From Paenibacillus dendritiformis (lineage in GTDB: Bacteria > Bacillota > Bacilli > Paenibacillales > Paenibacillaceae), in assembly GCF_945605565.1 (NCBI RefSeq), contig NZ_OX216966.1, forward strand, positions 6,130,001-6,194,000: a stretch of DNA of 64,000 nucleotides, written 5' to 3'. Below the pieces are notes generated by a model. It was not told where the DNA came from. It saw only the letters and a list, made by a program, of their open reading frames with translations, and did not search any database. Below, piece by piece: positions 41,648 to 60,963 of this stretch (its first letter is position 1; each line of letters starts with the position of its first letter). The position numbers and the translations under genes were made by a program.

Positions 41648-41870
41648 GTGCAGCAATTGTGATTTGAGCGTGCCTCGCAGCGGCAATCCTGCAAAAGTGC
41701 ATCAATTGTGCCGCATTCGTGCCCCACAGCGCAATTCCTGCAAAAGTGCAGCAATTTCTCCTATTAATGTGCCTATTTAGTTTATCCGCCCAGAATTGAT
41801 GTCTTTTTGCAGGAATTCTAACAAAATCCCCTTTTTGAACGGATAAATAATGTATATTTGCAGCAATTCA
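41648..41870 (+). repeat. Four-box composite repeat, copy 1 (with one extra box)
   Basis: TGCAGCAATT-type boxes start at 41649, 41698, 41747, 41808 and 41859. Several are preceded by CTGCAAAAG, giving small CTGCA/TGCAG hairpins. The first two intervals are 49 bp and the 49-bp units are clearly related along their length. The last four boxes have spacing 49, 61, 51, nearly the same as the copies at 54,434 and 60,759. No coding frame. Confidence 0.8.
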
Positions 41871-41954
41871 CTCCTCAGCACAAGAACAAGAAGTCGGCGT
41901 GCATCGCGGCCATTGCATGTGGTTCTCGTTACGCTTCTTCTACCGTCTCTTCAA

Positions 41955-42090
41955 GCGCAACTTCCGTGCAACCTCCCGCACAATTCTCCGCGTTCAACCC
42001 CCAGCTCAACTCTCCGCGTTCAACCTCCTGATCAACCTCCAGCTTAACCTCCCGTTTACCCCTCCGTGCAACCTCCCTAGCAACCCCGAG
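41955..42090. repeat. Short CAACCTCC-type degenerate repeats
   Basis: About ten irregular copies of CAACCTCC or a one-base variant every 12 to 18 bp (GGAGGTTG on the minus strand). The purine/pyrimidine asymmetry is strong: the plus strand is pyrimidine-rich. Reading frames through it are low-complexity and look accidental. Confidence 0.6.
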
Positions 42091-42132
42091 CATGGCCCCG
42101 GATCTACGGCCCCCCCTTAACAGAGCCAACAC

Positions 42133-42166
42133 AAAAAAAGCCGTCCTCCATACGGAGAACAGCCTT
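42133..42166 (-). terminator. Terminator of the PepSY gene
   Basis: On the minus strand a 13-bp stem (with three G-U pairs) around a 4-nt loop is followed by seven T's, 18 bp after the stop codon. Confidence 0.85.
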
Positions 42167-42183
42167 CTTGCTTGCTATACGGT

Positions 42184-42495
42184 TCAATCTTCCTGCTCGA
42201 CTTTCAGCACCTTGCCGGTCTGAGCATCTACTTCTACTTCAAACACCTTGTTCTGATCCGTCATAATGATCACTTCATATTTGATCTTCCCGTCATCCGT
42301 GTCCAGATCAACATGAAGAACTCTTCCCTTCACTTGCTGAAGAGCAATCGACTTCGCCTCTTGTTCGCTAATCACTCGCTGGGCCGGCTGGTTAGCCTCA
42401 TAGGCGGCATGCGCTTCAGATGCAGCAGGAAATAGGGTAAGGGCCGCCATGCCTGCATTGACCAGAGCGAGAACGCCAAGCACCACTTTTTTCAA
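42184..42495 (-). CDS. Secreted PepSY-domain protein
   Basis: About 103 aa. A signal peptide (KKVVLGVLALVNAGMAALTL, likely cleaved near AHAA) is followed by one PepSY domain: ISEQEAKSIALQQVKGRVLH ... EVEVDAQTGKVLKVEQED. PepSY proteins are thought to inhibit or chaperone proteases at the cell surface. The TTG at 42495 gives a clean signal peptide start and has AGGAG upstream; an in-frame ATG at 42525 is the alternative. Confidence 0.8.
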   Translation of the reverse strand: MKKVVLGVLALVNAGMAALTLFPAASEAHAAYEANQPAQRVISEQEAKSIALQQVKGRVLHVDLDTDDGKIKYEVIIMTDQNKVFEVEVDAQTGKVLKVEQED

Positions 42496-42588
42496 CCTAA
42501 ACACGCTCCTATGTACTGTTGTCATTGTGTCTATGTTGTGTACAAGAAGCTGATTTTATACGTCCGGAAAATAGTTTCCATAAAAAAC

Positions 42589-42613
42589 AAAAAAAGCCTT
42601 ATATCAAAGGCTT
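42589..42613 (-). terminator. Terminator of the tRNA-Leu gene
   Basis: Minus strand AGCCTT / AAGGCT stem followed by seven T's, 18 bp after the tRNA 3' end. Confidence 0.8.
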
Positions 42614-42630
42614 CTCCATTAACTCTGTTA

Positions 42631-42717
42631 TGGTGCGGTAGAGAGGACTCGAACCTCCACGGGCGTACGCCCACTACCCCCTCAAGATAGCGTGTCTGCC
42701 ATTCCACCACTACCGCA
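42631..42717 (-). tRNA. tRNA-Leu(GAG)
   Basis: 87 nt including an encoded CCA. Acceptor TGCGGTA/TACCGCA, anticodon stem CTATC/GGTAG with the loop TTGAGGG (anticodon GAG), a long variable arm typical of class II tRNAs, and the TTCGAGT T-loop. It is identical to the copy at 62019-62105. It has its own promoter and terminator. Confidence 0.95.
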
Positions 42718-42751
42718 CATTGAATTCCTCAACAAGAGGACAACAACAGTT

Positions 42752-42780
42752 ACTATACCATCATTTGAGCCGGATGTAAA
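42752..42780 (-). promoter_or_regulatory. Promoter of tRNA-Leu
   Basis: Minus strand TTTACA (42780-42775), a 17-bp spacer, TATAGT (42757-42752): 5/6 matches in both boxes. Confidence 0.75.
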
Positions 42781-42806
42781 GTGGAATTGTTCTCCATACA
42801 CATCCC

Positions 42807-43406
42807 TTATTTGAACCAGCCCTTCTCCTTGAAGCGCGTAATCGCTTCAATCCGGTTGCTTACATTGAGTTTATCCAGAATAACGGAGATGTAATTGCGG
42901 ACGGTCCCCGTCGTAATAAATAGCTGTTCGGCGATTTGCTTCGTATTTTTACCGTCGGCGATAAGCACCAGCACTTCCTTTTCCCGCTCGGTCAATGGAT
43001 TCTCTTCGCTATACGCCTCGTCCACCAGCTCCGAAGCATAGATGCGCCGCCCGGCCATAATGATGCGAATCGAGTCTGCCAGCTCTTCGCTGGGACTATC
43101 CTTCAACAAGTAGCCGTGCGCCCCCGCCTTCACCGCTCGTTCGAAATATCCGGCTCTGGCGAATGTGGTCAAAATGATGACCTTGCATCCGCAGCCCTTA
43201 ATCTCTTCGGCCGCATCCAAGCCGCTCATCCCCGGCATTTCAATGTCCATGATGCAGATATCCGGCTTATGCTGATGAACCAGTTGTACGGCTTCTTCCC
43301 CATTGCAGGCTCGGCCGACGACACTCATATCCTCTTCCAGATCAAGCAGGGATGCCAGTGCGCCCAGCAGCATCCGCTGGTCCTCTGCAATTACGATTCG
43401 AATCAT
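42807..43406 (-). CDS. desR: Response regulator DesR (membrane fluidity)
   Basis: 199 aa NarL/LuxR-type regulator. Receiver domain with the phosphorylation site Asp54 (ICIMDIEMPGM) and Lys in LLKDSPSEE; C-terminal LuxR helix-turn-helix (LTEREKEVLVLIADGKNTKQ). Gene order des-desK-desR and the conserved Asp54 match the B. subtilis system, where DesR~P activates the desaturase gene on cold shock. It ends 27 bp before the tRNA-Leu promoter. Confidence 0.92.
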   Translation of the reverse strand: MIRIVIAEDQRMLLGALASLLDLEEDMSVVGRACNGEEAVQLVHQHKPDICIMDIEMPGMSGLDAAEEIKGCGCKVIILTTFARAGYFERAVKAGAHGYLLKDSPSEELADSIRIIMAGRRIYASELVDEAYSEENPLTEREKEVLVLIADGKNTKQIAEQLFITTGTVRNYISVILDKLNVSNRIEAITRFKEKGWFK

Positions 43407-43417
43407 TGCCCCGCCTC

Positions 43418-44539
43418 CTATTGTGACTGCTTGAATGCGTTCGGCACTGTAATGATGACCGTTGTTCCATTATCAGGTACGATGTCCATACTTCCATTCA
43501 CGAACTCAAGCCGCTCCTTCATGCCCCGCAGCCCGTTGCCCCGCGAACCCGCTGAATCCGCCGCGATGCCGATTCCATTATCCTTCACCTTCACGCACAG
43601 CTCGGTATCCAAGGGCTCCATGATGATCGAGCAAGCGGAAGCATTGCTGTGCTTTACGATGTTGGTCACCGCTTCCTTCAGGCACATGCTGATCACATTT
43701 TCGTTCAGCAGCGAGGTGTTGCTGAGCTTCTGCTCGCCTTCCAAGGTGAACTCGATCTCAGCCGCCTTCAAAATCTGCTTGATGCGAAACAGCTCATCCT
43801 CTAACCTCGTCCCCCGCATTTGAGTAACCATTTCCCGCACTTCCTTCAAGGCAGTTCTGGCCGTTTGCCGGACATCCTTGAGTTCGATCTGGGCTTGAGC
43901 GGGGTTTTTGCTTATTAATTTATTGGCGAGATCGCTCTTCAACCCGATCAGCGAGAGCTTCTGGCCAAGCGTGTCGTGAAGGTCGCGCGCAATTCGTTGG
44001 CGTTCTTCCAGCTTGACCAGCTCGGAGATCCGTTTATTCGCATCCTCCAGCTGCCCCTCGAGCTTCTCCCGTTTATTGCGGTTATACGTGGTGACGGGAA
44101 GGAGAATCACACCGATGAGACTGATAAGCACGAACGGAAGTTGGGAGATCAATACCGGATTTTTCGTGACAAAACCGAAGTTGAGCGTTGCGATCGTACT
44201 GACGAGATGAATCGAGTACAGCGTAATAAATCCGATCCGGTGCTGAATATTTCCGATAAAAAACGCTAAAAACAGGGCGAAATAGACATAGCCGAACAGC
44301 ACAGTCATCGTAATGGAAATCAATATTTGCAAGGAGGTCCAGAAGTATACTTGCCAACCTCTCGCAACAAAAGAAAGCACGTAGCACACGAAAAACATTA
44401 AAATCATGACGATCCCGATGACGACTTGGTACGTCGAAGAGGAACGAAATATGAAATAGAACGGGAGGATGTAAAAGACGACCCATATATAGGGACTAAG
44501 ACCCGTGCTTTTGTAAAAAATCTGATACCACTTCTGCAT
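43418..44539 (-). CDS. desK: Membrane thermosensor kinase DesK
   Basis: 373 aa. About five membrane helices (residues 1-155) form the sensor; a cytoplasmic coiled coil (KREKLEGQLEDANKRISELV) leads to the HisKA_3 domain with His188 in ERQRIARDLHDTLGQKLSL, the same position as in B. subtilis DesK. The ATP-binding domain has KDNGIGI and GNGLRGMKERL. In the model system it senses membrane thickness. It ends 11 bp before desR. Confidence 0.92.
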   Translation of the reverse strand: MQKWYQIFYKSTGLSPYIWVVFYILPFYFIFRSSSTYQVVIGIVMILMFFVCYVLSFVARGWQVYFWTSLQILISITMTVLFGYVYFALFLAFFIGNIQHRIGFITLYSIHLVSTIATLNFGFVTKNPVLISQLPFVLISLIGVILLPVTTYNRNKREKLEGQLEDANKRISELVKLEERQRIARDLHDTLGQKLSLIGLKSDLANKLISKNPAQAQIELKDVRQTARTALKEVREMVTQMRGTRLEDELFRIKQILKAAEIEFTLEGEQKLSNTSLLNENVISMCLKEAVTNIVKHSNASACSIIMEPLDTELCVKVKDNGIGIAADSAGSRGNGLRGMKERLEFVNGSMDIVPDNGTTVIITVPNAFKQSQ

Positions 44540-44596
44540 GGTCGTCCTCCCTGAAGATCGATGTAATTGTATAGTAACACAAACGCCGCTGAACGG

Positions 44597-45658
44597 TCAT
44601 TTTCCCTGGATGCTCTGGGTGCTCCTTGGAATGCGATCGGCCGCGCGGTTGGGCTTGCGTAACACATGCTTCACATCCTTGAACCCGACGAATGTTTTGT
44701 TCTGTTCATCCCACAGCCGGAACCGCAGCGACTTCAGGCTGGTTATGAGCGTAATCGTGGTCGCCATTTGGAGCGGAGGGGTTGCCTCATGCGCCTTCTC
44801 CAGATAATAGTTAGGCACCTTGGGACTCAAATGATGGACATGATGGAACCCGATATTTCCGGTTATCCACTGCAACGCCTTGGGCAATTTATAATAAGAG
44901 CTTCCCTCCACGGCAGCCTTCACATAGCTCCACTCGTCCTCGTTCTCGAAGTAAGAATCCTCGAATTGATGCTGAACATAGAACAGCCAGATGCCGAGCA
45001 TGCCAGATACGTAGAAAACCGGCCCCTGAATAAGCACAAACGCCTGCCAGCCAATGGCCCAGCACAGAAGCGAATACAGAGCGGCGATGGACACATTGAT
45101 TACGTAAGTGTTGATTCGCTCCTTCCGTCTCGCGCCTCTGCGGTTAAAGCGGTATGCAATCAGGAAAATAAAAATTGGCCCCAGTCCCAGCATAACGAAT
45201 GGATTGCGGTATATGCGGTAGGCGATTCGCTTCGACAGGGGAGCCGCGGCATATTCATCTACAGTGAGTACCCACATGTCCCCGGTTCCCCGCTTATCGA
45301 GATTGCTGCTCGTCGCATGATGGATCGAATGACTGTGCTTCCACTGCTGGTATGGCACAAGTGTCAGGATCCCCGTGATGGTGCCGAGGATATCATTGGC
45401 CCTGCGGCTCTTGAAGAACGATTGATGACAGCAGTCATGGAAAATAATAAACGTACGAATAACGAATCCAGAAGTAATTATCGCAAGGGGAAGCGTAAGC
45501 CAGTACGAGACGGAAAGGCTTGCGTACGCCGCATACCAGAGCAGCAGTAATGGCCCCAAAGTGTTAATCATTTGCCGAATGCTGGACTTCGTATCGTTTT
45601 TTTCATACGGAGCGACGCTTTTCTTTAGATGGGCCAGCTTGGAATGAATCGTATTCAT
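44597..45658 (-). CDS. des: Membrane fatty acid desaturase Des
   Basis: 353 aa integral membrane di-iron enzyme that introduces a double bond (position 5 in B. subtilis) into membrane lipid acyl chains. The three His boxes are present: HDCCH, HSHSIHH and HHVHH. RBS AGGAGG precedes the ATG. It is the first gene of des-desK-desR; the region just upstream holds candidate DesR sites. Confidence 0.93.
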   Translation of the reverse strand: MNTIHSKLAHLKKSVAPYEKNDTKSSIRQMINTLGPLLLLWYAAYASLSVSYWLTLPLAIITSGFVIRTFIIFHDCCHQSFFKSRRANDILGTITGILTLVPYQQWKHSHSIHHATSSNLDKRGTGDMWVLTVDEYAAAPLSKRIAYRIYRNPFVMLGLGPIFIFLIAYRFNRRGARRKERINTYVINVSIAALYSLLCWAIGWQAFVLIQGPVFYVSGMLGIWLFYVQHQFEDSYFENEDEWSYVKAAVEGSSYYKLPKALQWITGNIGFHHVHHLSPKVPNYYLEKAHEATPPLQMATTITLITSLKSLRFRLWDEQNKTFVGFKDVKHVLRKPNRAADRIPRSTQSIQGK

Positions 45659-45727
45659 CTTATGGTTTTCCTCCTAGTATGACGCATCGGGAACGTATCC
45701 CTTCATCAACGGCAAATTCCTATCTTC

Positions 45728-45793
45728 AGTATAGAAAAGACAACCCGCCGGTTGTAGTCATAAACGTCAAGTCGAGAGTATGATAAACGTCAT
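45728..45793 (-). promoter_or_regulatory. des promoter with candidate DesR operator
   Basis: On the minus strand TGACGTTTAT occurs twice (45792-45783 and 45769-45760), 23 bp apart, followed by an ACAACC/GGTTGT inverted repeat and TATACT (45733-45728) as -10. No good -35 is seen, which fits an activator-dependent promoter. Confidence 0.6.
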
Positions 45794-45811
45794 ATAAGGA
45801 GGATAAATATG

Positions 45812-47155
45812 TTATTCAGGAATAATGCTTACCCGCTCCCAGCCGCGCTTGCTCCATCTGCGCAGCATGACGAGCGCCCTCACCCATTCATCAACGGCGA
45901 AGGCGAGCCAGATGCCCGCCAGCCCCAAGCCGAATACGATTCCGAACAGATAAGCCAAGGGTACGCTGATTCCCCACATCGAGACGAGACCGATCAGCAC
46001 CGGGAATTTGACGTCTCCCGCCGCGTTCAAGGAGCTGATAAGCACCATGTTGCAGGCCCGGGCCGGCTCTAGCAGCACGGACAAGAGCATCAGTTGCCGT
46101 CCAAGCTGGATAATCTGCGGGTCGGAGGTGAAGAGTCCGATCAGCGGCCCGGACAAGGCGAACAAGAGCAGGGAGACGGCCAGCGTCACGCCGGCCCCAA
46201 GCTTCAGATGGCGGATGCCGGAATGATAGGCTTCCTCCTTGCGCGCCGCCCCGATGAAATGGCCCACGATGATTTGCGTGCCTTGGCCGATCGCCATCGA
46301 GAAGACGAAGACGAAGGACGTGATGTTCTGCGTATATATTTTGGTCGTCAATGCCGCCGCCCCGAGGATGGCTACCAAATACGTAATGACGACCTGGGAC
46401 AAATTATAGGAAACATGCTCCCCGGCGGACGGGATGCCGAGCTTGAAAATAAGGCGAAGATCAGCTCGTCGCATGCGCAGCGGATGCATCAGGCGGACGG
46501 GCTGATCCAGCCGCCGGCTGCATACAATCCAGTACGCGATCATCGCGGCGGCCCGGCTGATCCAGGTCGATACGGCCACCCCTTCCACTCCGAACGAAGG
46601 CAGGCCGAACGGCTCCATCAGCACGATATAGTTGCCGACGATATGCAGCACGTTCACGCCGAACGAGATGACCATCATCTCCTTCACCAGGCCCCGGCAC
46701 CGCAGCATCGTTCCGAGCGTCATGCTGAGGGCGATTAGGAAGACCGAGCTGCCGGTGATGGACAAATAAGCCCCGCCTTCCGCCAGCAGCCCGGGAGGCA
46801 GCTTGAACAGAAGCAGGAAGGCGTCGGCGCAGGTGCATAATATGGCGCTGAACAGGATGCCGATCATCAGATTCAACGTGAGCGCCGTTCTCCCGAGGTC
46901 ACCCGCCTCCCCCAGCTTGCCCGCGCCAAGCCATTGATTCAGGATGACGCTTGTCCCGACCGTGACGAAGCCGAACATGAGACCGGCCACCGTCAAAATT
47001 TGATTGGCCACGCCCACAGCCGCCACGGCGCCGTCGGAATAGCTGCTCAGCATCATCGTATCGGCCATGCCGAGCAGCATCCCGAACAAGGACTCCATGA
47101 AGATGGGCCAAGTCAACGTCAGAATGCCGGTGCGGCGATTATTCGCAAGGCTCAT
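45812..47155 (-). CDS. MATE-family multidrug efflux transporter
   Basis: 447 aa, about 12 helices in two pseudo-symmetric halves; NorM/DinF-type pattern (LTWPIFMESLFGMLLGMADTMML at the N-terminus). It is the last gene of the phosphoesterase/sugar transporter run: its ATG lies 17 bp inside the preceding phosphoesterase gene. The substrate is unknown; in this context it could export a product of the upstream enzymes, but drug efflux is the default. Confidence 0.9.
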   Translation of the reverse strand: MSLANNRRTGILTLTWPIFMESLFGMLLGMADTMMLSSYSDGAVAAVGVANQILTVAGLMFGFVTVGTSVILNQWLGAGKLGEAGDLGRTALTLNLMIGILFSAILCTCADAFLLLFKLPPGLLAEGGAYLSITGSSVFLIALSMTLGTMLRCRGLVKEMMVISFGVNVLHIVGNYIVLMEPFGLPSFGVEGVAVSTWISRAAAMIAYWIVCSRRLDQPVRLMHPLRMRRADLRLIFKLGIPSAGEHVSYNLSQVVITYLVAILGAAALTTKIYTQNITSFVFVFSMAIGQGTQIIVGHFIGAARKEEAYHSGIRHLKLGAGVTLAVSLLLFALSGPLIGLFTSDPQIIQLGRQLMLLSVLLEPARACNMVLISSLNAAGDVKFPVLIGLVSMWGISVPLAYLFGIVFGLGLAGIWLAFAVDEWVRALVMLRRWSKRGWERVSIIPE

Positions 47156-48056
47156 GGCTTACCTTGCTCCCGTCATCCAGCCGGATCCATGTCCGGAAGC
47201 GGCGCTGCCCTTCCAGCAGACGGATAACCCGCGCTCCCCGCTGCAGACCGCCGTAACCGCCGTATCCGGTCACTCGCCCGTACCCGAGCCGGATGCCGTG
47301 CACACTGCCCACATAATCATTATCATGATCATGGCCGGCGAAGGCGCCGATCATATCGCCGCTCTCCACCATCGCGGCGAAGAGCCCGCTGTTCAGGCGG
47401 GGGCAGCATACGGCTTCCTGCCGAATGCCCGCGGCCTGGCCGGATTCCCAGGCCTCCCGGAACTCCGGCACCGGAATATGGAAGAAGGCCAGGCTCGGCA
47501 GAGCGCCATGTCGCTGTCGTTGGCGGAGCGCTTCCCGGCGATACCAGTCCACTTGATCCGGGCGGATCCAGGCATATCCGCCAACGGATGGCGGAGCCAC
47601 ATCGCCGGAGTCGAACAGGTAGAGAAGAGCGGCCGGCCCCGCCTGGGCAGACGCCTTCACCGCGATGACATAATTGCCGACCCCGTGTATATCAGCAGGG
47701 CCGGCTTCCGCCAGCGACATCCTGCAGGACGCAATCCCCTCCAGCAGCTCCTCGCGGGAGGCTCCGCCCTCCGCATCATGATTGCCGAAAATAACGGCGA
47801 ACGGCACCTCCCTTCGCTCCGCAACCTCGACAATGCGGCGAAGCGCGGCGACGGGCTCAACCGTTTCCTTCCCGTACAGCATATCCCCGGAGTAGATGAC
47901 CAGATCGGGCCGCTCCGTCTCGATGATGCGCTCAGTCAGGGCCAAGGTGCGGGCATCCAGCTCCGACTTCCCTCCTCTAACATGCAGATCGGTGAATTGA
48001 ACGATCGTAAACGTTCCGTCCGGACGGAACTGCAGCGGTATGCTCATCCCGCTCAT
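47139..48056 (-). CDS. Calcineurin-like metallophosphoesterase
   Basis: 305 aa, no signal peptide. All five metal-ligand motifs are visible: FTDLHVRGG (DxH), VIYSGDMLYG (GD), VIFGNHDAEG (GNHD), AFFHIPVPEF (H) and FAGHDHDNDY (GHxH). It resembles the fungal/bacterial Dcr2-type branch. The ATG at 48056 overlaps the stop of the PHP gene (ATGA), and its own end overlaps the MATE gene. The substrate is a phosphomonoester or diester; the cluster suggests sugar- or glycerol-linked ones. Confidence 0.87.
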   Translation of the reverse strand: MSGMSIPLQFRPDGTFTIVQFTDLHVRGGKSELDARTLALTERIIETERPDLVIYSGDMLYGKETVEPVAALRRIVEVAERREVPFAVIFGNHDAEGGASREELLEGIASCRMSLAEAGPADIHGVGNYVIAVKASAQAGPAALLYLFDSGDVAPPSVGGYAWIRPDQVDWYRREALRQRQRHGALPSLAFFHIPVPEFREAWESGQAAGIRQEAVCCPRLNSGLFAAMVESGDMIGAFAGHDHDNDYVGSVHGIRLGYGRVTGYGGYGGLQRGARVIRLLEGQRRFRTWIRLDDGSKVSHEPCE

Positions 48057-48946
48057 TCCCCCTTGCTCAGGAACAGCGGCTGCGAGAACGCGCCGAAGCC
48101 CCCTTCCAAATAAACGGCCAAACGCACATACTGCTCGTCCCCTTTGCATTCGTACACGAGCTGCTTGAATCGGCCCGTCTGCTCGTGAAGCACGCGGCCG
48201 TCCTTGCCGATGACCGTCGCGTATTTGTACATGCCATCCAGATGAACGTCGGACAATAAGTCAGCGACAATGGCCGTCCCCTCGACGCGGATCGACCCGA
48301 AGCCGTACCCGGTGGAGACGTAGAAGCTGCCCTGCCGGATGGCGCTCAGCACCGCCTCGCGGCTGTTCTCGCGGGCATACACCATATTCCACGCCCGCCG
48401 CTCCTGGCCGTACGCGTGGAAGTCGTCATTGCCGAAGCCCCATACTTTGCGTCCGGAGGACAGCAGCGCATCCCATTTGTCGAAGGCGATGTCATACTGC
48501 GGATGGCCGTCGCCATTGATGATCTCGATGCCAGTATAAGCGGGCAGCCGCAGCATATCACCGAATTTCCAATATTGCGAAAAATACCGGTTCGGATGAA
48601 CGAGCACCGAGATGCCTCCGTTCTCCAGGCAGAGGGACGAGAGACGCCCGTAATTTTCGATCGTAAATTCATTCGAATACTGTTCCATCAGCGTCTCCGG
48701 CGGCTGTACCAGCAGCATATGCGCCTGCGGGCTGCTCACCTCGATCGCCTCGAACAGCGTCGGGATGGGGCAATCCCCCGCATGCGGCGTAATCTGATCA
48801 TGATCGGAGATCCCCAGGAAGTCATAATCATGGTACATCCGGTACACCGTCGCCAACGGATGATGCCCGTCGCTGTTCGTCGTATGGTTGTGGAAGCTTC
48901 CCCGCAGCCATACCCCTTCTTGTGCATATGGATTTCGAATCTTCAT
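48053..48946 (-). CDS. PHP-domain phosphoesterase
   Basis: 297 aa. PHP motifs: GSFHNHTTNSDG (HxH), FLGISDHDQITPH (DH), ISVLVHPNR (HP) and GFGNDDFHAYG (DxH), binding up to three metals. The C-terminal about 90 residues are a beta domain (VEGTAIVADLLSDVHLDGMY). Family members hydrolyse small phosphates, e.g. phosphoesters of sugars or nucleotides. The ATG 48946 behind AGGAGGCC is preferred over 48976. No signal peptide. Confidence 0.85.
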   Translation of the reverse strand: MKIRNPYAQEGVWLRGSFHNHTTNSDGHHPLATVYRMYHDYDFLGISDHDQITPHAGDCPIPTLFEAIEVSSPQAHMLLVQPPETLMEQYSNEFTIENYGRLSSLCLENGGISVLVHPNRYFSQYWKFGDMLRLPAYTGIEIINGDGHPQYDIAFDKWDALLSSGRKVWGFGNDDFHAYGQERRAWNMVYARENSREAVLSAIRQGSFYVSTGYGFGSIRVEGTAIVADLLSDVHLDGMYKYATVIGKDGRVLHEQTGRFKQLVYECKGDEQYVRLAVYLEGGFGAFSQPLFLSKGE

Positions 48947-48999
48947 CCAGCCGGCCTCCTGTCTGTTCGTAAGCATTGAGCGGGTAAGACGTTGTATCG

Positions 49000-49899: not shown

Positions 49900-49982
49900 C
49901 CTCGTTCCTCCCCTTTATCCATGGATGGAGAGCCCTCCGCTCTAGCGGAAAGGCCCTCTCATACTCTCTTAAAACCGTTCGG

Positions 49983-52754: not shown

Positions 52755-52784
52755 CCGTCTCGCCCTCCCTTCACATCGATGCGC

Positions 52785-53865: not shown

Positions 53866-53895
53866 AAAAAAGAACCGGACTCACGTCCGGTTCTT
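53866..53895 (-). terminator. Terminator after the GH39 relic
   Basis: Perfect 11-bp stem (AAGAACCGGAC / GTCCGGTTCTT) with a 4-nt loop, then six T's on the minus strand. The core ACCGGACTCAYGTCCGG recurs at the end of the DeoR gene (54,742). Confidence 0.9.
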
Positions 53896-54421
53896 CAACA
53901 CTGTCGACAATGGAGATAGGCCGCCTTATACACGGTGTCATTCGTCAATTCCCTGATAGGCGGTCGAATTCCATTCCGTGAGAACCAATTCCTTGTCAGA
54001 CAGCCCTTGCTCGGCCAGCAGCCTCATCACCTGCGCAAGCATGTCCCGCAAATCATCCGGATTCGGAAGAGTCTCCATGAACTCTCCACTATTCGGCGGT
54101 ACGGATGCAACGGGAGCCGCAGCAGAGCGGGCGGTTCGGCGTGAAGCACCCTCCTCGATATGGTCATGCGGATAAAATGAAGCGGGATGAAGTCCGGCAA
54201 ACACGGATTGCTGCGGCAGAACGCAAAAAATTCATCATTCAGCCGCGGCGAGCGGATGGTGATGATCCGCCCGGGTGCGCAGCCGCTCCGAAACTCCCTT
54301 CAAGGTCCGATAGGTTCGCAAATCCATCTCTATATATTCTTCCACCGTTCCCGGCCAGGACGTCCGCAGCTCCGGTCATCCACTCCACTAAAGCTGCAAT
54401 ATCTCCCGCCACTCTAGTCAT
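53895..54421 (-). pseudogene. Decayed GH39-type glycoside hydrolase fragment
   Basis: Read across frames, the minus strand gives pieces that fit a GH39 (beta-xylosidase-type) domain in the right order: ELRTSWPGTVEEYIEM then RTYRTLKGVSERLR; NDEFFAFCRSNPCLPDFI; FYPHD; DDLRDMLAQVMRLLAEQGL; KELVLTEWNSTAYQ; and ELTNDTVYKAAYL. At least three frameshifts are needed, one at a T-run near 54,187 and one at about 53,955. The N-terminal half and the true C-terminus are missing. The upstream end stops at the repeat element that begins at 54,434. An 88-codon open frame (53938-54204) is only part of this relic. Confidence 0.75.
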
Positions 54422-54433
54422 CTGCTCCGCGAA

Positions 54434-54617
54434 TGCTGCAAAAATGCAGCAATTTCATTGAGACGAGGATGCGAAAATAGGATTGCTGCAAAAATACAGC
54501 AATTACCCTACGGCAAGGCATAAATAGCATTCAAAATGGCGAAATAATGTAATTTTGCAGGATTTTCTCAAAACTTAGCCTCTTGAGGTTAAAAATGCTG
54601 CGCCTGTGCAGCAATTT
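54434..54617 (+). repeat. Four-box composite repeat, copy 2
   Basis: TGCAGCAATT-type boxes start at 54445, 54495, 54556 and 54607 (spacing 50, 61, 51). Boxes 1, 2 and 4 form hairpins of the type TGCTGC-loop-GCAGCA. Box 3 is preceded by GAAATAATGTAATTT. It separates the GH39 relic from the DeoR gene. No coding frame. Confidence 0.85.
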
Positions 54618-54737
54618 CATGCGGGGAACAGCTTGCTTCATGCGCGGACCAACTTCCCTAACCTAACCTGTTCTGCCTTCCCCGGCCCCGCCCATCCTAA
54701 GAAAATAACTATCGACGGGACTTGGTCGACAGTCAGA

Positions 54738-54764
54738 AGGAACCGGACTCATGTCCGGCTCCCC
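54738..54764 (-). terminator. Hairpin at the end of the DeoR gene
   Basis: CCGGAC-TCAT-GTCCGG with partly paired flanks (GGAA / CTCC). The DeoR stop codon falls in its loop. There is no clear T-run. Confidence 0.45.
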
Positions 54765-55561
54765 GTCTCCATGCGGCCATCCGCGACGATCCAGGTGATG
54801 GCTTTGATCTCCAGCTCCTGCGCCCATGACGCCGGATGCTCCTGATCGCAGACGATGACATCGATTTGCTCCAGCGGCGCGATATGGCAGAAGGCCTGAA
54901 TGCCGATCTTGCTGTAGTCGGCCAGCAAGATGACCTCCTTCGCGCTCGCGGTCACCAACCGGGAGATGACGGAATCATTCATGTCATAATCGCTGATTCC
55001 GGTCATCACCGACATCCCGCCCACGGAGATGAATGCTTTGTCCACATAGAAATTGCGCAGCATCTCCTGGCATAGATGCCCGCTGACCGACTGCTGCTCA
55101 GGCGAGATCTCCCCGCCGAGAATGATGACCCTGCCGCTGAACAAGCCCTGCGTCAGCGACTCGCGAAGCAAGCTGGCCACCGCCAATGAATTGGTGATGA
55201 CCGTCACCCGCTTTTTGCCCTTCAAGGCACGGGCCAGCTCGTGAATCGTCGTGCCCGTATCCATATAGACGGTATTCCCGTCCTGAATCAGTTCGGCGGC
55301 GCGGCGGCCAATCGCCTGCTTCGCTTCATGGTTGAGGACTTGGCGCTGCTGGTATGGAGGCTCGCCCTCCTCATACTGCACCTTGACCGCTCCGCCGTAT
55401 ACGCGCCGCAGCCGTCCTTCCTCCTCCAGCACCGCCAGATCGCGCCGGATCGTCTCGTTCGAGACATGCAGCCGTTCGGCGAGCGAGACGACGCGCACCT
55501 TCCCGACCGCATCGAGCTGCTCGATAATATAACCTTTGCGTTCTTCCGCCAAAAGCGACAT
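54749..55561 (-). CDS. DeoR/GlpR-family transcriptional regulator
   Basis: 270 aa. N-terminal DeoR helix-turn-helix (VRVVSLAERLHVSNETIRRD), then a sugar-phosphate sensing domain with YMDTGTTIHELARAL and DKAFISVGGMS. DeoR proteins usually bind phosphorylated sugars or sugar alcohols, which fits the phosphoesterase and sugar transporter genes around it. The ATG 55561 is preferred; the GTG at 55570 overlaps the ribosome binding site. Confidence 0.9.
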   Translation of the reverse strand: MSLLAEERKGYIIEQLDAVGKVRVVSLAERLHVSNETIRRDLAVLEEEGRLRRVYGGAVKVQYEEGEPPYQQRQVLNHEAKQAIGRRAAELIQDGNTVYMDTGTTIHELARALKGKKRVTVITNSLAVASLLRESLTQGLFSGRVIILGGEISPEQQSVSGHLCQEMLRNFYVDKAFISVGGMSVMTGISDYDMNDSVISRLVTASAKEVILLADYSKIGIQAFCHIAPLEQIDVIVCDQEHPASWAQELEIKAITWIVADGRMETGSRT

Positions 55562-55613
55562 CGGCCTCACCCCTCCCCTTTTTCCTATAAAATCGCCTTA
55601 TGCCTTCCATCCT

Positions 55614-57383
55614 CTACTCCCGCAGCGCGAAACGCTCTTCGAATGACAGCGGAATGGTGAAGTAATCATACGATCCCGTCAACAATCGGTAATCCGGATA
55701 AGCCAGCTTCTCGGCTCCGGTCAGGCCAGCCAAGCGATCTACCCATGGGGAAAAGGTGCGGAACGTGATGCGGTTCCCCCGCTCATCGAATTCCGCCAGC
55801 CTCAGCCAGCCGTTGCCGCCGCGGTAACTGTCCTGATAGTTGATAAGGAGTTGGATAACGTCCTGCCCCTTCGCATTATGCCGAATCCGATGCGCCGTGC
55901 CGTCAAAATGCCCGTTCACCGTCATAAAGACTTGGGGACAAGGCCAGACCAGTTCATTCCAGATAAGCGTACCGTTCTCCGAATCGCGGGCCGTCCGCCG
56001 CCCGGCTTCATTCCGTTCCGCATACAGGATATCATGCGAGACGAGAACGGTCGGCAGCGTCCGATGAAGCTCCAGCATCTCCTTGCACCAAGCCATATCC
56101 TGCCGCAGATGCTTCATATCCGCCATCAGCCAGCCGTAATGGTAGCTCCCCGCTTCGATGATGCCGTACGAGCTGTACCCGGAAGGGGAGCAGCCCCGGA
56201 CATAATGCTTGGGAAGGAAGCGCTCCGGCCCGAAATGCCGGAGATAGGTCCCGGCCGCATCATAATCATGATTGCCCGCGGTCATCATGTACGGAACATC
56301 CGCGTCATCCAGAATGGCGACCGCCCGCGACGCCCGGTCCCATTCCTCCTCCGCTTCGCTATGGTCGACGACATCCCCCAGCAGAGCGGTCATGGCGATG
56401 CGGTCCCGGGCCTGGTGCTTCGCCAGCCATTCCGTCTGCGCCTCGAACATCTCGGGATTCAGATAGACCAGCTTCTGCGCATCCGGGACAAAAGCAAACT
56501 GATAGTTCTCTGCCCGTTCCAACAGAGGGAAGGGGTCATTGGCGCCTTCCAGCACCCGCTTCGGTTCGATCTCCACTAACCAATCTGCCCGCTCCAGAGG
56601 CTCGCCCGCTATGCGAATCTCCCGAATCGTTCCGGTGAACAGCTTGTCGAGACGTCCTCCCCATTCGGATGCGCCGACATTCCAGCCCTTGCCCTCGATG
56701 GCGGCGATGCCGATCATGTTCCGCGCCGGACTGTTGAAGTCGCATATGCCGTTCACGTACAGCAGCGTCCGATCCCCATCGTTGACGATGACGATATGAT
56801 GCCACTCCTCTTCCTTCAAATAACGCGACCAGCTTGTCGCCGGCATATCCCGGCTCCAGGAATGGCTGACCCATTGATATTCCATGCAGTTCGAGACGGA
56901 TAAGGTGGCGAGCAGTTCATTCTCCCCTTGTCTGCCGATATCCGCTCCGCGCCCCTGCCGGGTGAGCACCCCCATCCAACTGTGCTTCTCTTCCCGGAAC
57001 GGACGGGGAAGATGCACGATGGCTTCGATCGTATAGCCCTGTTCGAAGCGTTCCCGGTTAATGGGCGCGTCCGCCGCCGTCCGGAAATAACAACCGAAGG
57101 GGGTGTTATCGTTCCGGAAGACGAGACCGCCTTTATCCCCGCAGCCGTCTGCCCATGACAGCGGCAGGCTTGCCTCCGCCTCCGGCTCCTGCCCTGCGGC
57201 ATCCGGCCCCTGCCTAACCGCAACGGACTCCAGGAGGTTCCCGCTGCCGCTCAAGTCAGCGAGCACAAGCGCACCCGCTTCAATGGAGCCGGACACGACC
57301 TGTCCAGGATCGAATCGCCAATGCGCCAGCACGGACAAGGGCTGATATCGTTCCGCTAACGGCATCATGCGTTCACGCTGCAT
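55614..57383 (-). CDS. LamG-metallophosphoesterase fusion (YvnB-like)
   Basis: 589 aa, no signal peptide. Residues about 80-265 form a concanavalin A/LamG-type beta-sandwich (LLYVNGICDF, WNVGASEWGGRLDKLFTGTI). Residues about 290-560 are a calcineurin-like phosphoesterase with FVPDAQ (DxQ in place of DxH), TALLGDVVDHS, MTAGNHDYD, VLVSHD and MTVNGHFDG (GHxxG in place of GHxH). The same variants are known to me from YvnB-type enzymes. The lectin-like domain suggests a sugar-linked phosphodiester. It overlaps the nucleotidase gene by 19 bp. Confidence 0.82.
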   Translation of the reverse strand: MQRERMMPLAERYQPLSVLAHWRFDPGQVVSGSIEAGALVLADLSGSGNLLESVAVRQGPDAAGQEPEAEASLPLSWADGCGDKGGLVFRNDNTPFGCYFRTAADAPINRERFEQGYTIEAIVHLPRPFREEKHSWMGVLTRQGRGADIGRQGENELLATLSVSNCMEYQWVSHSWSRDMPATSWSRYLKEEEWHHIVIVNDGDRTLLYVNGICDFNSPARNMIGIAAIEGKGWNVGASEWGGRLDKLFTGTIREIRIAGEPLERADWLVEIEPKRVLEGANDPFPLLERAENYQFAFVPDAQKLVYLNPEMFEAQTEWLAKHQARDRIAMTALLGDVVDHSEAEEEWDRASRAVAILDDADVPYMMTAGNHDYDAAGTYLRHFGPERFLPKHYVRGCSPSGYSSYGIIEAGSYHYGWLMADMKHLRQDMAWCKEMLELHRTLPTVLVSHDILYAERNEAGRRTARDSENGTLIWNELVWPCPQVFMTVNGHFDGTAHRIRHNAKGQDVIQLLINYQDSYRGGNGWLRLAEFDERGNRITFRTFSPWVDRLAGLTGAEKLAYPDYRLLTGSYDYFTIPLSFEERFALRE

Positions 57384-57949
57384 CGCAAGCCTCCCGCTGC
57401 AGCCGCTTCATCTGGGCCCCGCAGCTTGGCCATGAACCACGCCCCGGCTTCCAGCCAGGAATCGACCCGCACGAACCCCTGCTCCCCCGCATTATGCGGA
57501 GCCGAGAAGAGAATGCCCTGGCCCTGGAAGCGCCGCAGTTGGTTCACATTGTCGTCGATCATATAATCGGCGCGAATGATACTCTTGTCTCCGCAGAAGA
57601 CGAAGTTCATGTCGGACAAAAAGTCAAAATGCTCCTGCAGCCACTCGTACTTGGCGCGGAACGAGGCCGGAACCTCCATTGCCGCCGTCGTGATGAAAAT
57701 CTCATAATGGCGGCTAAGCTCGCGGATAACCTCCTGGCTATGTTCCATCACCTTCAACTGCCGGAAGAAGTCCTCGCGCCCGAAGTAGCTGTCAATCTCC
57801 CGCTTCCGCTCGGGCCTGACCTGCGCCAAGGTCCTGCCCTGCAGTTCGGCGGCCGTAACCATGTCGCCAAAATCCCGGTTGTACCATTCCCGGTGCGTGC
57901 CGGCCGTATCGGCCATCACCTCATCCATATCGATTGCAATGCGCTCCAT
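57365..57949 (-). CDS. 5'(3')-deoxyribonucleotidase-like HAD phosphatase
   Basis: 194 aa HAD-fold enzyme. Nucleophile motif AIDMDEVMADT (DxDxV), motif II Thr in IFITTAAM, and the C-terminal motif YMIDDNVNQLRRF. This pattern fits the NT5C family that dephosphorylates dNMPs, but other small phosphates are possible. The ATG 57949 has GGGGAGG ahead of it. First gene of the three-gene unit that ends with the DeoR gene. Confidence 0.82.
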   Translation of the reverse strand: MERIAIDMDEVMADTAGTHREWYNRDFGDMVTAAELQGRTLAQVRPERKREIDSYFGREDFFRQLKVMEHSQEVIRELSRHYEIFITTAAMEVPASFRAKYEWLQEHFDFLSDMNFVFCGDKSIIRADYMIDDNVNQLRRFQGQGILFSAPHNAGEQGFVRVDSWLEAGAWFMAKLRGPDEAAAAGGLRCSVNA

Positions 57950-58425
57950 CGCGATTCCTCCCCTTTCAGACCTGGCTGTATGCAACCAAGCAACAATACA
58001 GACAAAACACAATCAAACAAACCGGATACCACAATCATAGAAGGATTATGTTTTCATCAGATCAATCTATTGTAAATGTATTGTAAAAAGTATCATTTTT
58101 CCAACAACTTGTTCCTTCATATTGATGCACGGCGATTCAAATCCATTCATCGGGTATACAGCTCATGCATTCGATGCCGTTCCCTGAAATTAAAAACGAA
58201 CCGATTTTATGCATTTATGCATAAAAAACCTGCATAAAAGCAAGCCGTCCCTGTTTCGAAATGCTTAATTTTTAAGCTTTTTCCCCGAAAGATACCGGAT
58301 TCCACCCGCAACTTCCTTCCAAAGCGGCCGTAATATATAGAGCTTCATCCTGATTGTTCCACTACATCCTGAATCCTCCTTCATACATTTGTTAACGCTT
58401 ACATTTTCGAGAGAGGAGCCCTCTT
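57950..58425. other. Divergent intergenic region nucleotidase-rocF
   Basis: AT-rich, no coding frame. Holds the palindrome at 58208-58223 and further TGCAT motifs (58168, 58230). No SigL-type -24/-12 element (TGGCAC-N5-TTGCA) was found, although the B. subtilis roc genes use SigL. Confidence 0.6.
58208..58240 (+). promoter_or_regulatory. TGCAT palindrome cluster upstream of rocF
   Basis: TATGCATTTATGCATA, a perfect 16-bp palindrome apart from the central TTTA, followed by CTGCATAAAA. It is about 200 bp upstream of rocF. Its AT-rich palindromic form is like that of ArgR/AhrC operators, but TGCAT replaces the usual TGAAT half, so the regulator is uncertain. Confidence 0.4.
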
Positions 58426-59331
58426 ATGGACCGTAATCTGATTTCATTGCTGCGCGTTCCCTACGGCAAGGGAGGCGCACGGCCGGGAGCGGAGCAAGGA
58501 CCGGATGCACTGCTGGAGGCCGGACTCGTCCGGCATTTGTCGCAGTTGGGCTTGCAGACGATAGACGAAGGGGCCGTCCTGCCCCCCAGCGCGCAAGACA
58601 GCACTCAAGCGTCCGGTACGAAGCTGAAGCATCTGGAGGAAATCGCCGCTCTCAACAGCGAGCTGGCCGACCGCGTCGCGGAAGCGGCCGCCAGCGGGCG
58701 GTTTCCGCTCATTCTCGGCGGCGATCACAGCATTGCCATCGGCACGATTGCCGGGTTGACAAGACATTACCGCAATCTCGGCGTCATCTGGTTCGACGCC
58801 CACGGCGATCTGAATACCGAGGACACGAGCCCGAGCGGCAATATTCACGGCATGTCGCTGGCCGTCAATCTTGATCAGGGGCATCCGCTGCTCACCCGGA
58901 TCAGGCGGCAATCGTCCCGCATCGATCCCGCGAAAGTGGTCATTATCGGGGCGAGATCGCTGGATGAAGGCGAGCGGGCGTACATCCGCCAAGCCGGCAT
59001 TACGTGCTTCACGATGCATGATATCGACCGCAAGGGTATGCCTTATGTGATGGAGCAAGCCTTGCGCATCCTCGGCGACGGAACCGACGGCGTCCATCTC
59101 AGCTTCGACATCGACAGCCTCGATCCCGCCGAAGCTCCCGGCACCGGGACGCCCATTCCGGGCGGGGTCAGCTATCGCGAAGCGCATCTGGCGCTCGAAA
59201 TGATGTATGAATCCGGCCTGATCACATCCGCCGAATTCGTGGAAGTCAGTCCGCCGCTGGACAGCCAGAAGCGCACGGTCCGCTTGGCCATCGGCCTCAT
59301 CGGCTCGCTGCTGGGCGAACAGATTTTATAA
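58426..59331 (+). CDS. rocF: Arginase
   Basis: 301 aa manganese enzyme that splits arginine into ornithine and urea. The metal-ligand motifs are GGDHSIAIGT, WFDAHGDLNTEDTSPSGNIH and SFDIDSLDPAEAPGTGTPIP. GAGAGGAG precedes the ATG. It is followed at 107 bp by rocD, giving the first two steps of arginine use as carbon and nitrogen source. Confidence 0.96.
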   Translation: MDRNLISLLRVPYGKGGARPGAEQGPDALLEAGLVRHLSQLGLQTIDEGAVLPPSAQDSTQASGTKLKHLEEIAALNSELADRVAEAAASGRFPLILGGDHSIAIGTIAGLTRHYRNLGVIWFDAHGDLNTEDTSPSGNIHGMSLAVNLDQGHPLLTRIRRQSSRIDPAKVVIIGARSLDEGERAYIRQAGITCFTMHDIDRKGMPYVMEQALRILGDGTDGVHLSFDIDSLDPAEAPGTGTPIPGGVSYREAHLALEMMYESGLITSAEFVEVSPPLDSQKRTVRLAIGLIGSLLGEQIL

Positions 59332-59438
59332 TGGCAGGCAAGCCGAGACCTTACCCCCTTATCGTAAGGAAGATACCAAGCAGCTTGTTCACTTTTGCCT
59401 GAGACCATTCCAGCACTTTGAAAAAGGAGGAGACGAGA

Positions 59439-60632
59439 TTGAATCAATCGATGCGAATTATCGACCAGACGGAGCAATACGGCGCACGGAACTATCATCC
59501 GCTGCCAATTGTCATTGCGAAGGCAGAGGGAGTATGGGTCGAGGATCCGGAGGGGCGCCGCTATATGGATATGCTGAGCGCCTATTCCGCCCTGAACCAT
59601 GGACACCGTCATCCGGCCATTATCCAGGCGCTCAAGGACCAGGCCGATAAAGTGACGCTCACCTCAAGAGCGTTCCATAATGATCAGCTCGGCCCCTTCT
59701 ACGAGCGCCTCTCCAACCTGACGCGTAAAGCGATGATCCTGCCGATGAATACGGGCGCCGAGGCGGTAGAGACGGCCATCAAGGCTGCGCGCCGCTGGGG
59801 CTACGAGCGCAAGGGCATCCCGGACAACCAGGCCGAGATCATCGTCTGCGACGGCAACTTCCACGGCCGGACGGTCACGATCACATCCTTCTCGTCGGAA
59901 GAGGAGTACAAGTCAGGCTTCGGCCCGTTCACGCCCGGGTTCAAGCTCATCCCGTACGGCGATATCGGCGCGCTCGAGCGGGCCATCACCCCGCATACGG
60001 CCGCCTTCCTGGTAGAGCCGATTCAAGGCGAAGCCGGCATCATCGTGCCGGAGCCGGGCTTCCTGAAGGCGGCACGCGCGTTGTGCAGCCGGCACAATGT
60101 CCTGTTCGTCGCCGACGAGATCCAGACCGGGCTCGGCCGCACCGGCAAAATGTTCGCCTGCGACTGGGAAGAGGTCGTGCCGGATATGTACATCCTCGGC
60201 AAGGCGCTCGGCGGCGGCGTCATTCCGGTATCCGCCGTCGCGGCCGATGCCGAGGTGCTCGGCACGTTCACGCCCGGGTCGCACGGCTCCACCTTCGGCG
60301 GCAATCCGCTCGGCTGCGCCGTCGCCAACGCCGCCCTGGAGACGCTCGTCCGCGAGCGGCTGGCCGAACGGGCGCGGGAGCTTGGCGATTACTTCATGGA
60401 CGGACTCGCCAAGCTCCAATCGCCGCGCATCAAGGAATTGCGCGGCCGCGGGCTGCTGATCGGGCTCGAGCTGACGGAGCCCGCCCGCCCTTACTGCGAG
60501 CAGCTCCAGAAGGTCGGCCTGCTCGCCAAGGAAACCCACGACCATACGATCCGCTTCGCCCCGCCGCTCGTCATTACGAAGGAAGAGCTGGATTGGGCGC
60601 TGGAGCGGATTCGGGAAGTGCTGCCGGCGTAA
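59439..60632 (+). CDS. rocD: Ornithine aminotransferase
   Basis: PLP enzyme, 397 aa, converting ornithine and 2-oxoglutarate to glutamate-semialdehyde and glutamate. PLP lysine in [15 protein letters not shown], dinucleotide-like [20 protein letters not shown], and [14 protein letters not shown]. The TTG at 59439 sits 8 nt after AAAGGAGG; the next upstream in-frame start (TTG 59418) overlaps that site. The paired location with arginase argues for rocD over argD. Confidence 0.93.
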
Positions 60633-60706
60633 GTCCGATTCAAGCCAGGCAACGGGCCGCTGGGACGATCGAATGATCATCGTTCACAGACCGGACGCAA
60701 AAGAAA

Positions 60707-60726
60707 GGGGCCGTCCCGACGGCCCC
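60707..60726. terminator. GC-rich hairpin after rocD
   Basis: GGGGCCGTC / GACGGCCCC, a perfect 9-bp stem with a 2-nt spacer, 75 bp after rocD. T-richness follows only on the minus strand (CTTTCTTTT), so it may act mainly for minus-strand transcripts. Confidence 0.5.
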
Positions 60727-60758
60727 CTCCTGATTCTCAAAGCTCGACTTGCCGAAAA

Positions 60759-60942
60759 GCTGCAAGAATGCAGTTTTTCTATCTGACGTTTATTCCGTTA
60801 CAACAATTCCTGCAAAACCGCATCAATTTCAGCCTATCCATATAGATAGAAGCAAAGATCAGCGGAAATAATGCTCTTCTGCAGCAATTTAATAAAATAT
60901 CGACTCAAATAGTGTAAATTCCTGCATTAGCGCAGGATTTAT
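60759..60942 (+). repeat. Four-box composite repeat, copy 3
   Basis: Boxes related to TGCAGCAATT start at 60769, 60819, 60880 and 60931 (spacing 50, 61, 51). Box 1 is in a CTGCAAGAATGCAG hairpin. Box 3 is preceded by GCGGAAATAATG and followed by AATAAAAT, as in the other copies. It lies between the converging rocD and map genes. No coding frame. Confidence 0.85.
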
Positions 60943-60963
60943 TTCCTCATCCATCTTCCGCAG

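Follow-up and report, generated by a model that had tools for sequence, protein, structure and literature searches.

A dispersed quartet of spaced palindromes in Paenibacillaceae and its candidate partner, a small predicted DUF559 nuclease with a winged helix

The 64,000-nucleotide stretch of DNA analysed here (the window) carries three copies of a repeat unit of about 196 bp, consisting of four 24-bp palindromes (boxes) spaced 50, 61 and 51 bp apart. At least 150 of these quartets, none of them overlapping, are present in the 6.7-Mb genome to which the window belongs (G000, a relative of P. thiaminolyticus), where they are intergenic and mostly located 3′ of genes. Sequence comparisons point to a partnership, hitherto undescribed, between this repeat and the gene of a small predicted nuclease. 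Probably a DUF559-winged helix-turn-helix protein is dedicated to the repeat as its DNA target with several sites, in a system resembling REP/RAYT but assembled from unrelated parts. Palindromic repeats scattered through genomes are common, most of them lack an explanation, and RAYT/REP, the best known of the routes to them, uses one enzyme chemistry. If the proposed reading is true, a second, unrelated nuclease is tied to its own repeat and such systems arose more than once; proteins known only as DUF559 would acquire a testable role, and the quartet would be a ready-made array, the rigid geometry of which should reveal how the complex assembles. No description of the repeat, or of DUF559 together with repeats, was listed by our searches of open-licence PubMed Central.

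Dyad centres were measured for the window copies, which were scored with R1, a covariance model built from 23 copies. The first-pass annotation had placed the same four-box arrangement at 41.7, 54.5 and 60.8 kb on a single strand; all three copies were indeed found on the plus strand, and the size of the family had been understated. Copy 1, a solitary copy (class D), spans 41680..41874 (+, 126.2 bits; window position 41680 is contig position 6171680), with boxes at 41684..41707 (centre 41695.5), 41733..41756 (41744.5), 41794..41817 (41805.5) and 41845..41868 (41856.5). An extra fifth box reported earlier was recovered at 41635..41658 (+, centre 41646.5, TGCAGCAATT at 41649), 49 bp upstream of box 1. 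The gene of a PepSY-domain protein (42184..42525, −, PF03413, E 3.5e-15) has its 3′ end toward box 4, and at this locus all three sister intervals fetched (L307-L309) contain an R1 match. Copy 2 (class C by its flanks) spans 54427..54622 (+, 147.4 bits), with boxes at 54431..54454 (54442.5), 54481..54504 (54492.5), 54542..54565 (54553.5) and 54593..54616 (54604.5). Its box 4 faces the 3′ end of a DeoR-family regulator gene (54749..55570, −, PF00455, E 4e-48), and an R1 match is also present in the P. dendritiformis interval L343. Copy 3 (class B by its flanks) spans 60751..60946 (+, 161.0 bits), with boxes at 60755..60778 (AAGCTGCAAGAATGCAGTTTT, centre about 60766.5, read by eye), 60805..60828 (60816.5), 60866..60889 (60877.5) and 60917..60940 (60928.5). 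It is situated between the 3′ ends of a convergent pair, an aminotransferase gene (59418..60632, +, PF00202, E 2e-135) and an M24 metallopeptidase gene (61108..62010, −, PF00557, E 8e-53). To its left lies a terminator-like stem (60707..60727, +, GGGGCCGTCCCGACGGCCCCC), to which stems in other class B copies and in the sister species G006 are related. Spacing between dyad centres was thus as annotated, 49-61-51 in copy 1 and 50-61-51 in copies 2 and 3.

Each box is a dyad in which two degenerate 10-bp half-sites flank a 4-bp centre, with the consensus AATTCCTGCA-N4-TGCAGGAATT. Most boxes had been described as lying inside small hairpins; they are palindromic, but the real unit is this dyad. 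The upstream stretch ascribed to box 3 is kept, as AAATAATG/AATTGATG, but the box itself makes a poor hairpin, with mismatches at two inner pairs in 15/23 and 20/23 copies of the 23-copy alignment. The element as a whole is nearly dyad-symmetric, the loops showing A>T in boxes 1-2 and T>A in boxes 3-4 in 8/8 genomes tabulated. The quartet geometry is repeated across the order with differing palindrome sequences, distant elements having been retained at lengths of 184-206 bp. Among the sites listed for G035, tandem arrays with a period of about 52 occur, not quartets. Class A copies (50/110) were removed ahead of the spacing and arm tests.

Within the window, TGCAGCAATT occurred 19 times at no more than one mismatch (shuffles: mean 6.0, maximum 12), and the pattern TGCANNAATT-N35-60-TGCANNAATT gave 81 matches in the whole genome against 0 for the reversed-pattern control. 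A genome scan, by which the family could have appeared absent or its boxes randomly spaced, showed neither: R1 matched all 150 candidates scored, the three window copies among them. Since these were 150 of 1751 first-look candidates, 150 copies is a lower bound. Flanks of 110 of the 150 copies were fetched and classified, giving 50 copies in class A, 17 in class B and 15 in class C, with class D comprising the solitary ones. The idea that the family is chance or a model artefact, R1 picking any spaced palindromes and adjacency to genes reflecting a 3′-end bias, could draw on the symmetry of R1, by which many loci are reported on both strands and some match counts may double a locus, and on adjacency having been scored at the paralogue genes described below. 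We give it almost no credence, as R1 had no match at E<=1e-3 in 23/40 genomes, reversed-pattern controls gave 0-4 matches, and palindromes were also detected by a de novo test that is independent of R1 and includes an upstream control. A pattern scan of viral contigs gave almost exclusively single matches, among the matches listed.

Two of the readings offered by the first-pass annotation, a multi-hairpin RNA and a DNA-binding array on one face of the helix, were compared. In 23 copies, paired cells amounted to 79.3% (shuffles 79.4%) and covariation to 0.105 (shuffles 0.106), so that the boxes are read as DNA dyads rather than RNA hairpins; no compensatory change between box arms exceeded shuffling, and RNA hairpins were rejected as the selected unit. 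A hairpin of the whole element was likewise rejected, the spacers showing no clear dyad complementarity. Within single genomes, arm matching did not exceed shuffles in G020 (17 copies), G027 (31) or G004 (6); it exceeded them weakly in G000 (60), G012 (8) and G018 (7), and clearly in G019 (7) only, a genome with two box types. A 3′-UTR RNA element, in which a chain of hairpins stabilises mRNA or terminates weakly in both directions, would fit the location at 3′ ends, the A-tracts and T-tracts of the palindromic boxes, the weak arm matching in three genomes, the minus-strand folds of the window copies (z -3.65, -2.49 and -1.19) and the strand preference among codirectional copies in the own genome (-- 24, ++ 5; p 5e-4, classes B-D). 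It is nevertheless very improbable: besides the shuffle-level pairing and the defective box 3, other genomes lack a clear strand preference (++ 22, -- 15), and rigid spacing with dyad symmetry has no RNA rationale. Nor did any window quartet match Rfam at gathering score; three tRNA genes were the sole such matches in the window, and the two matches around copy 3 were both far below it. Four features speak for a putative binding array: distances close to 5 and 6 turns of the helix, degeneracy of the half-sites, higher in-situ conservation of boxes relative to spacers, and linkage to a protein with a predicted winged helix.

The candidate partner is a protein of 222 aa with a predicted Vsr/homing-type nuclease domain followed by a MarR/ArsR-like winged helix. 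One gene for it maps to 6496386-6497051 in the own genome, some 302 kb past the window. DUF559 (PF04480) matched with 27.4 and 24.0 bits (curated cut-off 20.6), and at E<=0.01 in 54/54 aligned homologues. The predicted fold of the nuclease domain resembles a homing endonuclease domain, in a list consisting mostly of C-terminal-domain matches, from which other families may be missing. Foldseek ranked the Bax1 endonuclease 6p4o first (E 5e-4), although its TM was 0.31 and its rmsd 12. Several distant paralogues carry a residue other than K84 in the E-x-K motif (E-x-D, E-x-M, E-x-Q), in an alignment that excludes loci L413, L414, L421, L424 and L436. A sequence search of solved structures gave weak winged-helix regulator matches only (E 0.56-0.97), and the single NCBIfam match was far below cut-off.

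Gene and repeat were compared in a sample of 118 genomes, all of one bacterial family (Paenibacillaceae); members of the protein family occur in 100 of them. The repeat was present in 22/22 genomes with a close homologue and in 0/18 genomes without the protein. Counter-cases were 17/118 genomes with the protein at E<=1e-70 but without R1 matches, and 5/118 with R1 matches but without a homologue at that threshold. Gene and repeat co-occur within genera, and in many genomes a quartet lies directly downstream of the gene, at its 3′ end; three other neighbour families were common to 3/8 genomes. In the de novo four-dyad test, 29/49 paralogues (near-duplicates included, L436 left out) had no significant 3′ array, the own genome's paralogue among them (p 0.14), and no array was seen by eye 3′ of some paralogues (G035 L454-L456, G117, G084 and two in G027). 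Some distant paralogues adjoin arrays of other palindromes; two of these, TCCAACT and TCGTACAAA, are also dispersed in their own genomes, and in G019 and G033 different palindromes stand beside different paralogues of one genome. Repeat and gene visibly change together by sequence; the Mantel correlation between box and protein was 0.70 (p 2e-4, n=16), and 0.23 (p 0.13, not significant) without near-duplicates. Should the protein be a restriction or modification-dependent nuclease, that is, a winged-helix fusion endonuclease, the adjoining arrays would be unrelated repeats. Such fusions cutting N6-methyladenine DNA are known (PMC11037411), a text that in its available part has no mention of Vsr, DUF559, Paenibacillus or palindrom-. 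This explanation is improbable given the arrays at gene 3′ ends, the co-occurrence, the differing palindromes beside differing paralogues, and the PADLOC search, in which matches were weak and confined to 2/3 proteins (E 0.04-0.06).

Between species, boxes were better kept than spacers at 8/9 loci (91% vs 76% overall). L299 was left out of this comparison as its best match was inverted relative to the flanks, and for L293 and L294, which have tandem matches, the flank-aligned match was used. Class C showed no such difference, either between copy 2 and P. dendritiformis (boxes 88/96, spacers 92/100) or at L243 (0.95 and 0.96). A copy was present in 20/20 orthologous intervals fetched, 18 of them at solitary loci, in a sample biased toward kept copies by the requirement that both flanks be found close together; 2/12 loci probed gave no paired flanks. 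Class A composites have CAGGCTGTTG ends, and one is bordered on both sides by a 5-bp CTTCT duplication in G006. In the solitary core, no terminal inverted repeat or target-site duplication was seen by eye. The mobile miniature element proposed earlier finds partial support, in that some copies travel in composite elements, but the tested loci are vertically conserved, and no recent core-only transposition was seen. At the copy 3 site, a short terminator takes the element's place in G001, G008 and G014, while G006 has the element. Flank identity is 89-93% for G006 vs 95-96% for the other three; as the genome with the element is the less closely related one, insertion and loss are equally likely, and the empty site was dropped as proof of mobility.

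The closest known counterpart is REP/BIME/REPIN with RAYT. As far as the available part of PMC2817692 goes, high-copy intergenic 3′ palindromes there accompany the gene of a dedicated nuclease, which is bordered by its repeat, gene and repeat presence are correlated, and the repeat changes along with the gene, all of which are likenesses to the present system. By the REP rule, from the available part of PMC3733652, a palindrome of 20-40 bp has GTAG or CGTC next to it as a tag. Here, the box consensus has no invariant GTAG/CGTC columns, a fixed 50-61-51 quartet of 24-bp dyads replaces the tagged single REP, the gene has its array on the 3′ side instead of on both sides, and the protein is a DUF559 nuclease with a winged helix, unlike the Y1 HUH tyrosine transposase RAYT (PF01797). 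A RAYT/REPIN identity was rejected: of the two Y1_Tnp matches in G000, one has two stops and the other is partial, and their distances to the closest R1 match listed are about 7 and 43 kb. I-Bth0305I is a Vsr-like homing endonuclease; such enzymes have a single homing site, in contrast to the predicted winged-helix C-terminus and the many dispersed non-coding arrays, its putative targets, found here. TnsA of Tn7 shares the order of a PD-(D/E)XK-type nuclease then a winged helix, and the ends of that transposon have several binding sites, but the present array is not at element ends; the Pfam search of the protein gave no TnsA match. CRISPR arrays have identical repeats, unique spacers and cas genes, whereas these boxes are degenerate and their spacings differ. 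Bcr1, named among Gram-positive MITEs in the available part of PMC3733652, is likewise a small dispersed non-coding element, and class A composites are MITE-like; in the solitary core, however, the internal geometry is the conserved part.

In the own genome the right neighbour is oriented toward the element in 78/98 called cases (p 3e-9), and where both neighbours were called they are divergent in 7/93; in seven other genomes this was 7/67, all from a home-made hexamer caller whose single calls may err. This 3′-end position, the persistence of boxes over spacers and a near dyad symmetry suited to a nucleoprotein complex would also fit an array that serves the host and is not mobile, as an element of chromosome architecture or of 3′ ends (a BIME-like insulator, or an aid to topology or termination). 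The DUF559-winged helix protein would then be a DNA-binding protein of the ordinary chromosomal kind, with an array at its own gene by chance, and copies would have multiplied only as passengers of other elements. We regard this as a serious but less likely alternative. The predicted homing-type fold and the palindromes that differ between paralogues of one genome, as in selfish families, argue against it, as do the 18/118 family genomes with neither protein nor repeat, from which it follows that the two are not essential. Under the preferred reading, a dedicated protein with its own target array, a protein dimer would bind each 24-bp dyad, the protein perhaps also cleaving DNA, and four such dimers, set about 5, 6 and 5 turns of the helix apart, would assemble into a nucleoprotein complex with two-fold symmetry. 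The parent unit would be the gene with the array at its 3′ end, from which array copies may have been dispersed by the nuclease, some within composite mobile elements and mostly to gene 3′ ends. Many solitary copies would later have been retained by selection on the boxes, any host benefit likely lying at transcription ends. Speculatively, this may be a new class of genomic parasite turned resident: a homing-type nuclease-winged helix that spreads an eight-half-site array without HUH or DDE chemistry, each paralogue owning its palindrome, with Paenibacillaceae hosts perhaps now depending on the dispersed arrays, which would mark the ends of transcription as phased nucleoprotein structures. A replication-strand bias (96/150 copies, p 8e-4) was also observed; it is weaker than the gene-orientation bias, from which it may follow.

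Each of the three arrays proposed in the first-pass annotation (41680..41874, 54427..54622 and 60751..60946; copies 1 to 3) was confirmed as a quartet of 24-bp dyads with centres 50-61-51 bp apart. In copy 1 the first spacing, taken from the dyad centres in the sequence, is 49 instead of 50 bp, and the fifth box assigned to this copy was recovered as a dyad 49 bp further out. Fixed spacing with drifting sequence, as described earlier, was also found in an alignment of 23 copies, in which boxes are conserved and spacers drift at near-constant length. Genome-wide, a two-box pattern gave 81 matches against 0 for its reversed control. The genome scan proposed earlier, carried out with a covariance model built from the 23 copies (R1), revealed further copies, at least 150 in total, with a highest E of ~1e-18 and no overlaps. 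As 150 of 1751 candidates were scored and every one matched, the real copy number is probably above 150. Loop bases favour A over T in boxes 1-2 and T over A in boxes 3-4 in 8/8 genomes; two dyads of the quartet point one way and the other two the opposite way. Since the spacings of ~50.5 and ~61.5 bp (52 and 63 in compared genome G033) amount to ~5 and ~6 helical turns, the boxes should, by arithmetic, lie roughly on one face of the DNA.

Compensatory changes, expected of the multi-hairpin RNA that had been suggested, did not exceed the shuffle level in the 23-copy alignment (A2): covariation was 0.105 versus 0.106 in shuffles, and a count of named pairs gave 79.3% paired cells versus 79.4%. 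Palindromy is a property of the consensus and is not maintained pair by pair. Variable positions of each half-site were also analyzed within genomes (arm test; 2000 shuffles where shuffle counts are given). No excess was detected in G020 (124 vs 127.4 expected), G027 (155 vs 179.1) and G004 (30 vs 29.0). The excess was weak in the own genome, G000 (574 vs 556.6; 57/2000 shuffles), G012 (63 vs 48.0; 8/2000) and G018 (65 vs 57.0; 7/2000), and clear in G019 (88 vs 78.3; 2/2000), where whole elements carry either TGCA or TCCA half-sites. We read the boxes as paired degenerate half-sites for a putative dimer.

In G000, an array match starts at the stop codon of a gene (6496386-6497051) encoding a 222-aa DUF559-wHTH protein, a predicted Vsr/homing-type nuclease with a winged helix. 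R1 at E<=1e-3 matched 17/40 genomes, counting the own one, and its matches extended to other genera and families within the order; the matched genomes were 17/28 with the protein and 0/12 without. A match lies 3' of a listed paralogue in 13 of the 17 (G000, G001, G004, G006, G008, G012, G014, G015, G018, G019, G020, G027 and G029). The array starts <=3 bp from where the aligned gene ends, or slightly within the aligned stretch (a few bases), in G001, G006, G008 and G014, ~60-155 bp past it in G012, G015, G004, G027, G018 and G038, and at ~0.5 kb and ~0.4 kb in G020 and G029. Matches 3' of the paralogue were not significant in G005 and G007; G013 and G035 were positive there by the de novo test alone. 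Among 118 family genomes, R1 matches occurred in 41/100 with the protein versus 0/18 without (Fisher 3e-4), in 36/53 with the protein at E<=1e-70 versus 5/65 of the remainder (3e-12), and in 22/22 at E<=1e-100. Stratified by genus, which removes within-genus relatedness only partly, the co-occurrence gave a CMH value of 4e-10. Much as RAYT genes do with REPs (PMC2817692), the gene plus the array beside it resembles a parent unit for a dispersed repeat family, although nuclease, box and geometry differ from the RAYT/REP system.

In copies from the other R1-positive genomes the spacing is kept and the half-site is altered (TGCAGGTATT in G020, TGCACTTATT or TCCAGTTATT in G019, TGCAGTTC in G018, TGCAACATTT in G029), and some paralogue genes in R1-negative genomes still bear arrays. 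That of G033 is AGTTGGA-5-TCCAACT at 52-63-51, with a de novo score of 30 against a shuffle maximum of 14 and an upstream score of 9. Palindromes were read by eye in G028 (GTTCCGTTA), G022 (AGTAG-CTACT) and G037 (GGTCA-TGACC), and adjoining further paralogues in G038 (GATA-TATC) and G033 (TATATGA-TCATATA). With near-duplicates counted, a four-dyad array 3' was significant for 20/49 paralogues at 0.05 and 15/49 at 0.01; the upstream control gave 4/29 and 2/29. In G033 the TCCAACT palindrome has 26 occurrences (control 1), which form groups on other contigs with the spacings unchanged; that of G035 is found 100 times in G035 and 31 times in G027 (controls 1 and 4). Since the sites listed in G035 include tandem arrays with a period of ~52, the quartet is one form within a wider array type. 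Protein and box similarity were significantly associated (Mantel test) solely with near-duplicates kept.

G019 has nine matches to the DUF559-wHTH protein, and its boxes are of two types, TGCA and TCCA (loci L319, L330, L342, L389, L423 and L444); a TGGA-TCCA array adjoins one paralogue and a TGCA-type array another, and ~50-bp tandem repeats without clear palindromes lie directly 3' of two more (L446, L445). Contigs C33 and C37 of G035 carry tandem arrays of nine listed TTTGTACGA-TCGTACAAA palindromes each, with a period of mostly 50-52.

Following sorting by flanks, 110 of the 150 copies were assigned to class A (50, composite elements), class B (17, copy 3 included), class C (15, copy 2 included) and class D (28, solitary, copy 1 included). 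In the class A members examined, a core is flanked by two direct ~170-bp element copies with CAGGCTGTTG ends. One class A-type unit lies within box 3 of the copy 3 orthologue in G006 (locus L183, ~800-1500), with CTTCT on both sides (read by eye); there, two direct ~170-bp CAGGCTGTTG-ended copies enclose a second quartet, apparently forming a non-coding compound transposon. Neighbouring genes were called using a home-made gene caller. In the own genome, the right-hand neighbour is directed into the element in 78/98 cases (46/55 without class A), and 7/93 neighbour pairs are divergent. Seven other genomes (n=67) gave 23 convergent, 37 codirectional and 7 divergent pairs, and neither strand was clearly favoured there (22 vs 15).

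The flanks of 12 copies were sought in four sister genomes and 20 orthologous intervals (10 loci) were fetched, 18 of them at solitary loci; an R1 match was present in 20/20. Over 19 orthologous pairs, identity was 90.7% in boxes versus 75.5% in spacers, with boxes higher in 18/19, omitting locus L299, whose best match runs in the opposite direction to its flanks. Per locus, boxes exceeded spacers at 8/9 (p 0.008), the sole exception being a class C locus; for copy 2, also class C, 88/96 box and 92/100 spacer positions were identical to P. dendritiformis. Because the predicted fold is homing-type, we suggest that the array may have spread by cleavage and repair; conservation of the solitary boxes suggests that the host would later have taken such dispersed arrays into use.

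For L299, which lies in G001 and is orthologous to 1867570, the quartet that matches best between the shared flanks points the other way from its counterpart in G000. The class B flanks of copy 3 (window 60707-61094) comprise a left end of GGGGCTGTCCCATAAG type, which includes a terminator-like stem, and the right end GGGACAGCC. In G001, G008 and G014, another short terminator occupies this position between the same convergent genes. Past the right-hand gene of copy 3, three tRNA genes were identified by Rfam matches on the minus strand (window 62022-62349).
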